Shown: one piece after another, positions 2,639 to 64,000 of the stretch | How positions within the stretch are numbered: the first letter of the stretch is position 1 | Layout of the letters: each line of letters opens with the position of its first letter | Assembly (NCBI GenBank): GCA_029891345.1 | Contig: CM056995.1 | Coordinates: forward strand, 215,764,547-215,828,546 | Length of the DNA: 64,000 nt | DNA from: Dryococelus australis | Lineage: Eukaryota > Arthropoda > Insecta > Phasmatodea > Phasmatidae | Reading direction: 5' to 3' | The notes under the pieces: generated by a model | Database searches by the model: none | The model's input: only the letters and a program-made list of their open reading frames with translations | Told to the model about the DNA's origin: nothing | Position numbers and translations under genes: made by a program

Positions 2639-3668
2639 GTCTTACCACAAAATCGAAGGTGATTTATTAAATGGGAAATAACTGTCATTTCATTTTCCTT
2701 TTCACTACGCAAGTTATAGAAAGTTTAATAAAATATTTGGAAAGAATTAAATGACTGAACACAAATAATTTTTCAGAGAAGAATTAAAACATTCTTAATC
2801 TCTAATGATTAAGACATCAAGTATTTTTTAGAATTTTTTTAGAATTGATAAGAAACCAAAGTCTAAGCCAGGATTAAGAATCTTTTAAAAAAAAAATCAG
2901 CATTGAAAAGTAAACTTGAAATTCCTATGTAATCATGAACTTAAAAGCTATGTAGAAGAAGTAATGTTAATTTTTCTGCCAACACACTAAAATGAATGGT
3001 TTGACATAAAAAAAAGAGCAATGGATAAATTTGAATCTTGAGTGAGTGGTTTCATTTGAATTCAGTAAACGAGATTGAACCTTCCATGAACAAGGAAAAC
3101 CCACAGAATTCACCAGAAATAATTTAAAACAAAACAAGTAAAAAATTATCAAAATAATGAACAAATTTATTTTATGTAGCCTGTAAAATCACCGTTATTT
3201 CTGGCGAAAGGCCATATTCAACGCGTTTCAAAGTAAGAAAAAGTAATAGAACATGATCACATTTTACAAAACTCCGAAATACTAATGAAAATAACTCATG
3301 ACAGATATTTCACAAATTGAAAAAAGCAACCATCTCAGTAAATATTTATCCTCTTCATGAGAAAATTGAGGTTAATTCACTACTAATTACAGACGATAAG
3401 AAACTTCCACACATCAACTTGCTATGTAATAAAATTAAAAATAATGGTCGTTGTTTTTGGTTTAAGGATTCCTCAAGGCTGATTTTCAAAGCAAAACAGC
3501 AGACAGAACGGTCGAGTTTTCTCATGTGAAAGGTAATTAACAATTTTACATTGGAAATAAAAATTATCTTAACTTCATTAATTTAAATTAAATTTATATA
3601 CAGAAAAATTTAAACCTGGGTTTTAGGAGATTTCAATGTTTTCGAAAGATATATTCATAAACACATTT

Positions 3669-4092
3669 AAAGGCTATTAACGATGAAGTAAGCACTTTTG
3701 AAATCAACCTTAGAAAAAAACCAATGCTCCTACTTGCATATATTTTAACGGGCGCTCTGAGTGACATATACCCAGTAAAGTTGGTAACGACGGAAGGAAA
3801 AGTAGTTCCATATCTTAACGCCTAATAAAAAGTGTTATGTAACTATTTGCGATAACTGAAATTATTTCTTTCGCTTTCTGGTTTTTTAATTCATATAAGT
3901 GCAAAAATTACCAGATTAGTAACATATTTACTTTTCTAATAATTCCACATTTTCACCTGACCGACGCATGAACAAAGCGATGAGGCTCACATCAACGTAA
4001 ATTTTGCATAAAGCGGAAGAATACACTACGTACATACAAGTAGATCCTAAGCAGGGCTTTCAAGAGTACTCATTTTACAGTGAACCACCTAT
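3669..4092 (+). mobile_element. MITE copy, family A
   Basis: About 424 bp with terminal inverted repeats related to GGCTGTTCACGGTAAAGTGAG. The internal segments are shared with other copies: GAAATCAACCTTAGAAAAAA near the left end, and a block around ATGAGGC...CAA in the right third. I use this copy's direction as plus for the family. Confidence 0.85.
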
Positions 4093-4399
4093 ACAATCTT
4101 TACTTAATAGTTTACCTTTTACCCTCATATTTAATTTTTATAGTACTTTTATTAAATTATTTATAACAGTTTTATAAATACTTTGGCATTAACGTTTTAA
4201 ATAACCACTTATATGTGCTTTAATGAATAGTACATTTTGAACATTTTGATTTTAATCAAAAGAAAATTATATTAAAATTTAGACTAAAATTTTTTTTCTA
4301 TGAACCCATTATATAAAAATATAATTCTGTTATCGAAACTACCACTCCAGCTTCAAATGCCTCAAAAACCCTAATAATAAAACAACATTGGCAGTGACA

Positions 4400-13383: not shown

Positions 13384-13588
13384 TCCATACTAATATTATA
13401 AAGAGGTAATGTGAGTTTGTTTATTGGTTTATATGGCTCGGGTAACCTCGAAAACTACACAGTCGATTATTATATTTTTTCACTATTAGAAAGCTACATT
13501 CTTCCAGAGGTTATAGGTTATACTGAATTAAAAAATAAAATTGCTTGAGAAATTTTATCTTTTTAAGCCAAGTCGGAGAAAAATGATC

Positions 13589-13829
13589 TATAGGCTGTTC
13601 ACTGTAAAGTAAGCACTTTTTAAGACGCTCCCAACACGCTTTAACCACTAGTAAATATATCTTATTGAAGCATCAGGCATTACATTTTGTGGGTGGTGAA
13701 ATGTATACCGTGTGTTTATTTGTTACATTGCAATGTTTATATTAAAGATCAGCTTGAATATGGAAATAAAGTGAAAGGAAAAATTTAGAAGGGCCTTAAA
13801 AAGTGCTCACTTTACCGTGAACAGCCTAT
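13589..13829. mobile_element. MITE copy, family A (nested in Helitron-type element)
   Basis: Terminal inverted repeats CTATAGGCTGTTCACTGTAA and its partner TTTACCGTGAACAGCCTATG bound a short 241-bp copy with an AT-rich interior. It sits between the two diverged internal blocks of the Helitron-type element. Confidence 0.75.
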
Positions 13830-13934
13830 GCTTTGCTGCTTTCCGAGCATGCCCTGCCAAAACTACAGAGCCGATTCTTATAAAGCTTTCACTATTAGAA
13901 AGCTACATTTTTCCAGATGGACATAGGCCATCCA

Positions 13935-16900
13935 GAGGGGCCACAGAGGCACAGTGGGTAGATAAATACCAATTGGGGCCACAGTGGCTCAGTGAATAGA
14001 GAGATATGGAGTGGGTCCACAGTGGCTCAGTAACTAGAGTAATACCAAGTGGGGTCGCAGTGGCCCAGTGGCTAGAGCGATCCCACATGGGGACGCAGTG
14101 ACTCAGTGGCTAGAGCACTCTCAAGTGGGGCACAGTGGGTCAGTGTATATAAATATATCAAGTGGGGATGCAGTGGCCAGTGGCTAAAGCGATCCGAAGG
14201 GAGAACACAGTGGCTCAGTGGATATAGCACTCTCAATGGGGTCTCAGTGTCTTAGTGGATAGAAATATATCAAGAGGGGATTCAGTGTCCCAGGGTGATC
14301 CAGTGATCCCAAATAGGGCCCCAATGGCTCAGTGGATAGAAATATATCTAGTGTGGTCACAGATACAAGTGGCTAGAGCACCTCAAATGGGGCCACAGTA
14401 GCGAAGGGGCTAGCGCGATCCCAAGTGGGGCCATAGAGGCTCAATGTATAGAAAGTTATGAATTGGGATGGATATCGCCCAGTGGTTAGAGCAATCCCAA
14501 GTGGGGTACACAATGGCCCAGTTGCTACAGCGATCCCAGATGGGCCGCACTGTATAAGTGGATAGATAGATCTCAAGTGAGACCACTGTGGCTTAGTGGA
14601 CAGAAATATATCAAGTGGAGACAGAGTGACCGAGTGGCTAGAGTGATCCCGTGTAGGGATGTAGTGGCTCAGGGGCTAAAACACTCTCAAATGGAACCAC
14701 AGTGGCCCAGTAGATATAAATATATCAAGTGGGGATGCCGTGGCCCAGTGGCTAGAGCGATCCCAAGTGGGAACTCAGTGGCTTAGTGGATAGAGAGGTA
14801 TCTCAAGAGGGCCACTTTGGCTCAGAGTCTAGAGCAATCCCAAGTGTGGCCGCAGTGGCCCTCTGGCTAGAGCTATCCCAAGTGGTGATGCAGTGTCTCA
14901 GTGGCTAACACACTCTTAAATGAAGATGCAGTGGCCCAGTGGATATAAATATATCATGTGGGGATGCAGTGGCCCAGGGCTAGAGCGATCCCAAGCAGGG
15001 TCGCAAAGGTTCAATAGATAGAAATATATCTAGTGTGGTCACAGAGGCCAAGTGGCTAGTGCACCCTCAATGGGGCCACAGTGGCCCAGTGGCTAGAGCG
15101 ATCCCAAGTGGAGACGTAGTTGTCAAGTTTCTATAGTTATCCTAGTGTGGCCGCAATGGTTCAATGGATAGAGAGATATTAAGTGGGTCCACAGTGTCTC
15201 AGTGGTAAAGACAATGCCAAGCGAGGCCACAGTGGCCCAGAGGCTAGAGTACTCCTAAATGGGAATGCAGTTGCTCAGTGGCTAGAGCACTCTCATGTGG
15301 GTCCGCAGTGGCTCAGTGTATATAAATATATCAAGTGGGGATGCAGTGGCCCAGTAGCTAGAGCAATCCCTAGTGGGGCTGCAGTGGCTCAGTGGATAGA
15401 GATCTTAAGTGGGGCCACAGTTTCTAAGGGGCTAGAGCAATCCTAAGTGGGACCAGAGTGGCCCAGAAGCTAGAGCGATCCCAAGTGGGGATGCAGTGGC
15501 TCAGTGTATGGAAACATATCAAGTAAGGATGCAATAGTCCAGTGGCGAGAGCGATCCCAAGTTGGGCCTCAGTGAATATAAATATATCAAGGGGAACCAC
15601 AGAGGCCCAGTGGATAGAGAAATCTCAAGTGAGAACACATTGGCCCATTGGCTAGAGCGATCCTAAGTAGTGACACTGAGATTCAGTGGCTAGAGCACTC
15701 AAGTGGCACAGCAGTGAATCGTTGGAAAATAATATATCAAGTGGAGCCACTGAGGCCCAGTGGCAAGATCACACTGAAGAGAAACCACAGTAGCCCAGTG
15801 GCTGGAGTGATCACATGTGGGGCTACAGCAGTTAAATTGATAGAAAGATCTCAAGTGGGGCCGCAGTGACCCAGTGACTAGAGCGATTTCAAGCAGGGAT
15901 GCAGTGGCCCAGTTGCTAGAGCGATCCCTGTGGGGCTGCACTGGCTCAGTGGATAGAAAGATACCAAGTGGGCCACAGTGGCTAAGAGATTAGAATAATC
16001 CCAATCGGGGCTAGTGTGGCGTAGTGGCTAAAGTGATCCCAAATAGGGACAAAGTGAATCAGCGGCTAGAGCACTCTCAAGTGGGACCACGCAGTGGTTC
16101 AGTAGATAGAAATATATAAAATGGGGACAGAGTGGCCCAATGGCTATAGCGACACCAAATGTAGATGCAATGGCTCAGTGGCTAGAGCAATTAGAGCAAT
16201 GGCAGTTGGTGCCGCAAGTCACAGTGGCTAGAGCAACCCCAAATGGAGGCCTAGTGGCTAAGTGGCAATGGCACTGTCAAGTGGGACTGCAGTTGAGTCA
16301 GTTAATAGAAATATATCAAGTGGAGATGCAGGGGCCCAGTGGCTAGAGCAGTCCCAAGTGGGGATGCAGTGACTCAGTGTGTAGAGCGATCCAAAGTGGT
16401 GCCACAGTCGCTCAGTGAATAGTGATCTCAAGTGGGGCAACAGTGGCTAAGTGGATAGAACAACTACAAGTGGCGCCAGAGTCGCTTAGGGGCTAGAACG
16501 ATCCCAAATAGGGCCGCAGTGGCTCAGTGGATAGAAATATATCAAATGAGGATGAAGTGGCCAGTGGCTAGAGCGGCCCCAAGTGGGGATGCAGTTGCTC
16601 AGCGGCTAGAGCATTCTGAAGTGGGTCGCAGTGGCTCAGTGCATATAAAATATCAAGTGGGGACGCATTTACCCTGGGGCTGGAGCTAACCCAATGGGGA
16701 ACACATTGGCTGAGTGGCTAGAGCACTCTCAATTGTAGCCTCAGTGGCTCAGTGGATATAAATATATCAAGTGAAAATGCAACGTCCCAAGGGCTAGATC
16801 GATCATAAGTAAGGCTGCAGTGGCAAAGTGGAAAGAAATATATCTAGTGGGGTCATAGAGGCCAAGTGGCTAGAGCACTCTCAAGTGGAGCCACAATGGC

Positions 16901-17555
16901 CCAGTGGCTAGAGCGATCCCAGTCTTGCCGCAGTGGCTCAGTGGCTAAAGCGATCCCAAGTGGAGATTCTGTAGCTCAGTTGATATAAATATATCAAGTG
17001 GGGATGCAGTGGCCCACTGGCTAGAGAGATCCCAAGTGGGGCCACAGGTGCCCAGTTTGTAATGTAATGCTAAGTAGAGCAGAAGTTCCCCAGTGACGAA
17101 AGCACTCTCAAGTGGGGCCACAGAGGCCCAGTGGCTAGAGCGATATCATGTTAGGCCGCAGTGGCTCAGTGGATAGAGAGATCCCAAGTGGGACCGCAGT
17201 GGCCGAGTGGCTAGAGCGATCCCGAGTGGAGATGCATTGACCCATTGTCTATAGCGATCCCAAGTGGGGCCACAGAGGCCCAGTGGGTAGAGTAATATTT
17301 AGCAGAGCAGCAGTGGGCCAGTGGCTAAATCACTCTTAAGTGAAGCCACAGTGGCCCAGCGGCTAGAGTGGTGTCAAGTGGTGCTGCAGCGGCTCAATGA
17401 ATAGAATGATCTCGAGTGGGGCCACATTTGCCCTCTGGCGAGAGCGATCCAACGTGGGGACGCAGTGGTTCAGTGGCTATATCAATCTGAAGTGGGGCCA
17501 CAATAGCTTGGTGGATAAAAATATATTAAGTGGGGTGCAGTGGCTCAGTGTATCT
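13935..17555 (+). repeat. ~39-bp minisatellite array with tRNA D-arm/A-box-like monomers
   Basis: About 90 degenerate copies of a 38-40-bp unit. The core is GTGGCTCAGTGGCTAGAGC, followed by a variable part and CAAGTGGGG. At least three monomer types recur: GCGATCCCAAG, GCACTCTCAAG and GAAATATATCAAG. They often alternate, which suggests a higher-order repeat of about 115-120 bp. The core contains TGGCTCAGTGG, a match to the pol III A box and to a tRNA D-arm. No matching B box is present in the unit, so these are not tRNA genes. No open frame is conserved across the array. Confidence 0.93.
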
Positions 17556-17589
17556 TTATATTATAAATTCGGAAGTGGTCGAAAGCTGT

Positions 17590-17945
17590 CTGAGGTAGTA
17601 GCATGTAGTTGCAGGTAGTCGCAATTTGTCTCGTGCAGTCACAGGTTGTCGCAAGTAGTCACAGGTCGTCGGAAGTATTTGGAGGTAGTCGCAAGTAGTC
17701 ACAGGTAGTCGGAAGTATTTGCAGGTAGTCACTAGTAGTCGTAAGTAATAATGGGTATTTTCAAGTAGTCGCAGGTAGTCGCAAGTAGTTGCAAGTAGTC
17801 ACTGGTAGTCACAAGTATTCACCGGTAGTCACAAGTAGCCGGGGGTGGTCGTAAGTAGTCATGGGTAGTCGAAAGTAGTGACGGGTAGTCGCAAGTAGTC
17901 GCAGATAGTCGTAGGTAGTCACAAGTATTCACGTGTAGTCGCAAA
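17590..17945 (+). repeat. 10-bp minisatellite (GTAGTCGCAA family)
   Basis: About 35 tandem degenerate copies of GTAGTCGCAA/GTAGTCACAG follow directly on the tRNA-like array. The unit is unrelated to the 39-bp monomer. The array stops about 60 bp before the Helitron-type 3' end. Confidence 0.93.
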
Positions 17946-18837
17946 TATATCAATATGTATTTTAATAACTCCATAAAACCTGAGCGAAACGATACCGGGC
18001 TGCTAGTTTGATAAATAAGATAATAGAAACATGAGTGTGATGTAGACGATTGAGTTGGCAATATCGATAGTACGGCAAGGTGGGGGGGGGGGGGGGAGGG
18101 AGAGGTTGATATGAGAATACAAGATGAGAAAGAAATATTTTTTGTGATGGTACGAAGTGATTTGATTACTAGACTTCCTTTATAGGTAGGATGAGTTTTG
18201 ATATTCGGGACAGTTCGCTTGTATGGTAATGTTTCACACTGAAGACGATTAGGACTAAAAACGTCTGCCAGATACAAAAAGAATAGCTAAAAGAAATAAA
18301 GTAATTCCCCCAGTATACCCCGTAAGGGATTGGGTCTGGGATGTGCTGGAGGGTAAGCCAGGCTCGGTTTTTTGGAAAAAATGTATTATGTTAGTTCGTG
18401 GATACCAAATAATTTATCTCGGTCTTCTTCCACAGTGAAATTCTTTAAGATTGTCAGCACTATTTTTTTTCTCTAACAAGAATGCTGCTTGTTGAAAAAT
18501 GTAATATAATGTAAGATGCACAACAGTTATATAAAAATGTACCAGATACAGCGATATAAATATTCTATTATATCAGAAAAAGTTTTTCTTGTAAGTATTC
18601 CTAAATTAGTTCCTGACGAAAGTTTCGTAAATCACTGCAATCAATTCAAAGAAATGTTATATATATATATATATAATTATGATATCACATTTCTAAGCTT
18701 GATGTTTACATGTTGTTCCTTGTAGCGTAAAAAGGAAAAGTTGACTGCAAATAGCAACTATATGTACAAATGCAATTGAGAGCAATATTATTGCTAGGGA
18801 CAATAAAATAAAATTTGATCGCTAGACATCAATTTTT

Positions 18838-19754: not shown

Positions 19755-64000
<44,246 letters not shown>

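Follow-up and report, generated by a model that had tools for sequence, protein, structure and literature searches.

A probable family of dispersed non-coding Helitrons with two internal tandem arrays in Dryococelus australis

The 64,000 bp stretch of Dryococelus australis DNA analyzed here (the window; assembly GCA_029891345.1, contig CM056995.1, positions 215,764,547 to 215,828,546 of the forward strand) contains, at window positions 13384..18006 on the plus strand, a 4,623 bp element that begins with TC, ends with CTAG, and is preceded by A and followed by T. We conclude that this element is very probably an old copy of a dispersed, non-coding Helitron family that carries two tandem arrays within its body. 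The conclusion rests principally on the recurrence of both ends, with sharp boundaries, at many other places in the genome, and on the repetition of the same order of ends, internal blocks, and arrays in other copies.

Ends, anatomy, and copies

The genome searched was the window's own assembly, which comprises 3.415 Gb in 646 contigs. With the 5′ end as query, 40 of 2,213 candidates were scored, the window among them; of the 39 others, 38 begin within 8 bases of the position corresponding to 13384. The 3′ end likewise gave 39 other scored matches (40 including the window, of 627 candidates), and every one of them covers the position of the CTAG and stops within 28 bases beyond it. We then examined 10 kb of sequence at the 20 best-scoring of the 39 other 5′ end places. 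An A precedes the element in 19 of these 20 copies, and 16 start with TC. A 3′ end was recognized in 12 copies, 10 of which end in CTRR (CTAG in nine cases), and in 10 of the 12 the next base is T. Similar 5′ ends may occur in moth Helitrons.

The window copy has a composite structure. Its 5′ end region (13384..13589, plus strand), as delimited by the genome-wide matches, includes the first of two internal blocks (13451..13517), which is 84% identical to the second (13859..13927); both are on the plus strand, and the second block precedes array 1 in many other copies of the family too. Between the two blocks lies a TA-flanked miniature inverted-repeat transposable element (MITE; 13593..13826, no strand assigned), the inverted ends of which, counting the TA, pair over 35 bp at 94%. 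All 20 other copies run through the corresponding place without it, and the MITE is therefore a separate insertion. Array 1 (13937..17550, plus strand) consists of 38 bp units of five classes with a weak three-unit order, b-e-c, as judged by Tandem Repeats Finder (TRF), unit alignment, and an order test; as assembled, TRF reports 95.5 units with 61% matches. Array 2 (17594..17940, plus strand; TRF) has units of 10/20 bp and varies among copies, and the 3′ end (17941..18006, plus strand), which closes with GGGCTGCTAG, is again delimited by genome-wide matches. Array 1 makes up 78.2% of the element, and the two arrays together 85.7%. A single stop-to-stop frame of at least 110 amino acids (17819-18286, minus strand) overlaps the element, reaching into it at the 3′ end, and we conclude that the element is non-autonomous. 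The anatomy thus agrees with an earlier sequence-only reading of the window, which had proposed Helitron-like ends at 13384 and 18006 inserted at A/T, two tandem arrays, two diverged blocks, a nested MITE, and an array filling about 80 percent of the element; that reading had also anticipated many copies sharing both ends with arrays of variable length, and both ends were indeed recognized in the 12 copies mentioned above.

The arrays differ greatly from copy to copy. Array 1 was not detected in nine of the 20 copies, has roughly 1 to 10 units in ten, and reaches some 26 in one (L080), a copy in which array 2 comprises about 117 units. In another copy (L067), some 2.6 kb separates the two pieces into which array 1 is split. 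Of the 20 copies, six have one insertion site in common, which lies within another repeat, and a seventh (L062) shares part of that site. Among five copies with the same flanks, array 1 ranges from about one to eight units, and the length of array 2 differs as well. These five copies appear to descend from one insertion; if so, as the flanks suggest, the number of array units changed afterwards, and the gain and loss of units can be read directly from them. In one copy (L070, reverse complement), the same 5′ end is accompanied by arrays of a 7 bp unit, AAGTCTT, at 890-1021 and 1564-1666 in place of the 38 bp array, so that the same ends can go with different arrays.

To represent an empty site, 110 + 110 bases flanking one sister insertion (L068) were joined and used as a query. 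Of 393 candidates in the genome, 40 were scored, and every one of these matches crosses the junction, at 80-85% identity, indicating that the host repeat is present many times without the Helitron, as paralogous empty sites. The lengths of most of these matches are within a base or two of the query and, taken with the A/T flanks of the copies, fit insertion between A and T without target duplication. The sequence-only reading had named an empty A/T target in a relative as support. What was found are paralogous empty sites of a sister insertion, within the same genome, and neither in a relative nor for the window's own copy.

Several observations weigh against this interpretation. No 3′ end was recognized in eight of the 20 copies; in some of these, for example L073 and L080, BLAST detects sequence of the 3′ type. 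Frequencies among the copies are biased, because the copies were chosen as the best matches to the window, and CTAG ends in particular were favored by a 3′ search word that itself ended in CTAG. Since six of the 20 copies occupy one site, the end counts are also not independent. One empty-site match differs from the query by 11 in length, and agreement was judged on match lengths rather than on base-level alignments. At the 3′ end of the window copy only a weak hairpin stem can be drawn, with 51% of shuffled sequences being equally stable (56% for a hand-written 39 nt version of the family 3′ end). The Helitron_like_N domain (PF14214) is abundant in the genome (150 scored matches of 1,453 candidates; best E 1.8e-59), and at all three Rep loci examined, the 2 kb upstream of the Rep domain contained no family 5′ end. 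Lastly, large block duplications inside array 1 gained no clear support over within-class permutations, with a lag of 47 units as a marginal exception.

Age of array 1 and class of the element

Array 1 of the window is far longer than that of any of the 20 other copies read, which raises the possibility that it expanded recently in place, long after insertion, as an incipient young satellite. To compare units, those with more than four gaps were dropped, leaving 94 units from the window and 88 from other copies. We defined five unit classes on 13 positions, and for comparisons between classes kept only those units with a clear class (83 of the 94, and 83 of the 88). The classes are common to the window and the other copies, and class a comes first in nine of 12 array stretches, window included. 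Within classes b to e, identity is 0.71-0.75 among units of the window copy versus 0.735-0.795 between the window and other copies; the window's units are thus no more alike among themselves than they are to units found elsewhere. They lie 15-17% from their class consensus, compared with 9-14% for the units of other copies, and this distance exceeds the divergence of the window copy's own 5′ end (10.9% from the majority consensus of 21 copies, window included; mean of the others 6.4%; ratio 1.7). At the 26 unit positions that are invariant among classes, divergence is 15.3% in the window versus 9.5% in the others (ratio 1.6). Given these similar ratios, the array seems to be as old as the element, and on sequence comparison array 1 seems to be old and unhomogenized.

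Some features of the window array do reflect its own history. At unit positions 5-7, 19 of 94 window units read ATG, compared with 3 of 88 units from other copies (P = 0.0005); CACTCTC is present in 8 of 94 versus 1 of 88 (P = 0.035). The order b-e-c is over-represented (9 occurrences versus 1.2 expected), and the trimers bec and ecb both exceed all 5,000 shuffles. It would appear that some unit variants were amplified in the lineage of the window copy. Such enrichment is what recent expansion would also produce; nevertheless, in view of the divergence of the units, we regard a young, recently expanded array as improbable.

The class of the element was assessed by its ends. According to PMC4067079 (here and below, published systems are described from excerpts of the papers cited), a canonical Helitron has a 5′ TC, a 3′ CTRR, and a palindrome of 16-20 nt about 11 bp from the 3′ end, inserts between A and T without target duplication, and is moved by a Rep/helicase transposase. 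The family has the TC (window and 16 of 20 copies), the CTRR (CTAG in the window, and 10 of 12 copies), and the A|T target. The alternative is that it belongs to the Helentron/HINE (DINE-1-like) group. In its favor, the canonical 3′ palindrome is not distinguishable from shuffles here. However, the CTAG ends and the A|T target fit the canonical definition rather than the T-rich targets of DINE-1 (PMC4067079), judging from the target bases rather than from the T content of the flanks. The ends by themselves do not decide the group, because a Helentron-like enzyme has been described in an element with Helitron-type ends (PMC4067079). On balance, we give membership of the Helentron/HINE group little chance, and favor a canonical Helitron.

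As to how such a Helitron would move, we infer a Rep/helicase encoded elsewhere; the three Rep domains examined had no tie to the family. Rolling-circle replication by this enzyme, starting at the TC end and finishing at the CTAG end, would move the element together with its array; transposon circles have been demonstrated for Helraiser (PMC4778049). Slippage or unequal exchange would be the probable route by which whole 38 bp units are gained and lost, and rolling-circle copying a possible occasion for it. Either before insertion or shortly thereafter, certain unit variants in the order b-e-c would have been amplified, in the line leading to the window copy, until the array held about 95 units. 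Subsequently, point mutation would have eroded the array without homogenization, and the MITE would have landed in the element. One locus (G000:C2:282133605-282137345) carries a family 3′ end and, about 3.1 kb after it, a Helitron Rep domain with the same orientation. This Rep gene was considered as a possible partner and set aside, as the 300 bases read contained no family 5′ end.

Arrays elsewhere in the genome

An 801 bp piece of array 1, used as a query, gave 39 scored array loci including the window (of 5,748 candidates). We read the 5′ flanks of all 38 other arrays and both flanks of ten; in one flank comparison, matches overlapping the array were dropped. Helitron 5′ sequence or the internal block adjoins 26 of the 38 arrays, 11 are without it, and one is undecided, the stretch read there being array throughout. 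Among the ten arrays read on both sides, six are followed by array 2 and the 3′ end, two (C2a and C9) have Helitron sequence on the 5′ side only, and two (C13 and C6) have none on either side, a further 5 kb in each direction included. The 11 arrays without 5′ Helitron sequence may be broken or nested copies. Two of them, L085 (C13) and L111 (C9:128612679-128613399), have very similar left flanks, as judged partly by eye, and another repeat may therefore host the same array. The longest array locus, at C14:93422945-93431602 (L081 and L082), has about 8.7 kb of the 38 bp unit, flanked on the left by partial Helitron 5′ sequence and on the right by a second Helitron 5′ end, array 2, and a 3′ end; it looks like a composite.

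These loci bear on the suggestion, made in the sequence-only reading, that so long an array would make the element a seed for new satellite DNA. Linkage to Helitron sequence was found for 26 arrays and was lacking, on the 5′ side, for the 11 possibly broken copies, with one case undecided. The seed role itself is at most possible: the array appears old and unhomogenized, and there is no large free satellite among the 39 scored loci. Classical satellites form long, free-standing, homogenized arrays, which array 1 does not, as it lies inside a transposon and its units are 61-66% alike. A broader version, in which the family is a genome-wide generator of satellite arrays that keeps a fixed 38 bp register at perhaps thousands of sites, with some arrays reaching several kb and some having shed their ends (C13 and C6), strikes us as conceivable but rather doubtful; the figure of thousands derives from the 2,213 (5′ end) and 5,748 (array) first-look candidates, most of which were unscored. 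The three states seen here (inside the element, 5′ side only, and neither side) resemble those of an oyster satellite found within an element, one-sided, and free (PMC12628747). As the link between Helitrons and satellites has already been reviewed in print (PMC12628747), the present case sharpens the question rather than opens it.

The opposite extreme, namely that array 1 is a free-standing satellite whose Helitron-like ends are chance or unrelated neighbors, could appeal to the 11 arrays without Helitron sequence in the 5′ flank and to C13 and C6, where it is missing on both sides, but is scarcely credible given that both ends recur genome-wide with sharp boundaries, other copies repeat the arrangement of ends, blocks, and arrays, Helitron 5′ sequence or block sits next to 26 of the 38 other arrays, and a sister insertion has empty sites.

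Window surroundings and closest known systems

The Helitron lies about 4.5 kb 3′ of the C-terminal word of a muscle-type myosin heavy-chain gene on the minus strand, this conserved word being located at 22486-22563. A Pfam scan of six stretches of the window gave Myosin_tail_1 in three (one below the cut-off) and no match in the other three. Just beyond the myosin word, at 22100-22396, there is a tandem array with units of approximately 24-27 bp (CCAGGGGCTACTAGCTAGGTGTAA). The inverted ends of the nested MITE have thirteen further matches in the window (E up to 0.01), namely 3665-3702, 4059-4093, 22695-22721, 23072-23100, 27535-27573, 38100-38129, 38465-38510, 47460-47504, 47715-47741, 48256-48283, 48637-48673, 55963-55998, and 62228-62255, so that this MITE family is common in the window. 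Another copy of it sits within array 2 of the Helitron copy L077.

Two further leads were pursued and rejected. The 38 bp unit resembles a tRNA D-arm or A box (TGGCNNAGTGG). ARAGORN found no tRNA, and no Rfam family reached its gathering score; with the limit relaxed to an E of 5, Rfam gave only three chance-like matches to other families, and the likeness to tRNA is likely to be coincidence. Concerning viral or prokaryotic relatives, 33 and 14 viral and 5 prokaryote contigs match short patterns of the element, and by eye none of the contigs continues into the element. The word TACTAATATTATAAA was absent from the literature searched, which does not show that the family is undescribed. Of four array words sought in the literature, one was matched, in an unrelated paper on Hedgehog signaling.

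Among the closest known systems by description is Hel-2 of insects (BmHel-2 and OnHel-2; PMC4344730), which likewise has TC...CTAG termini and A/T flanks, is non-autonomous, and contains an internal tandem repeat of variable length. It differs in that its repeat is a (CTGT)n microsatellite within a 250 bp consensus, whereas the present family has two arrays of longer units, the larger being 3.6 kb. Cg_HINE of the Pacific oyster (PMC7492417) is also a non-autonomous rolling-circle element with central satellite-like arrays of variable length, in which double arrays occur. However, it belongs to the Helentron group, prefers oligo-T sites, and has units mostly of 140-180 bp, with an average of up to five units per array; its longest array, in a cluster of 166 bp units, has 29.3 units (PMC7492417). 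The DINE-1 and HINE elements (PMC4067079) are similarly non-autonomous and rolling-circle, and some carry tandem repeats, which in two HINE-Cq cases take up about half of the element, but they are of the Helentron group, with T-rich targets and subterminal inverted repeats. In Drosophila virilis, tandem repeats of 154 bp, found in many clusters, are part of Helitron-2, although this element is 9.1 kb in length and has four units in its consensus (PMC3833285). Helraiser/Helibat (PMC4778049) shares the TC and CTAG ends and the AT insertion; it differs in being a reconstructed coding element with a 19 bp palindrome 11 nt from its 3′ end, and the excerpt of that paper mentions no array. The kind of element described here is therefore already known, and the useful parts are its exceptionally long array and the series of array lengths at a single site; the case points to a large animal genome where the growth of tandem arrays within a transposon is measurable.

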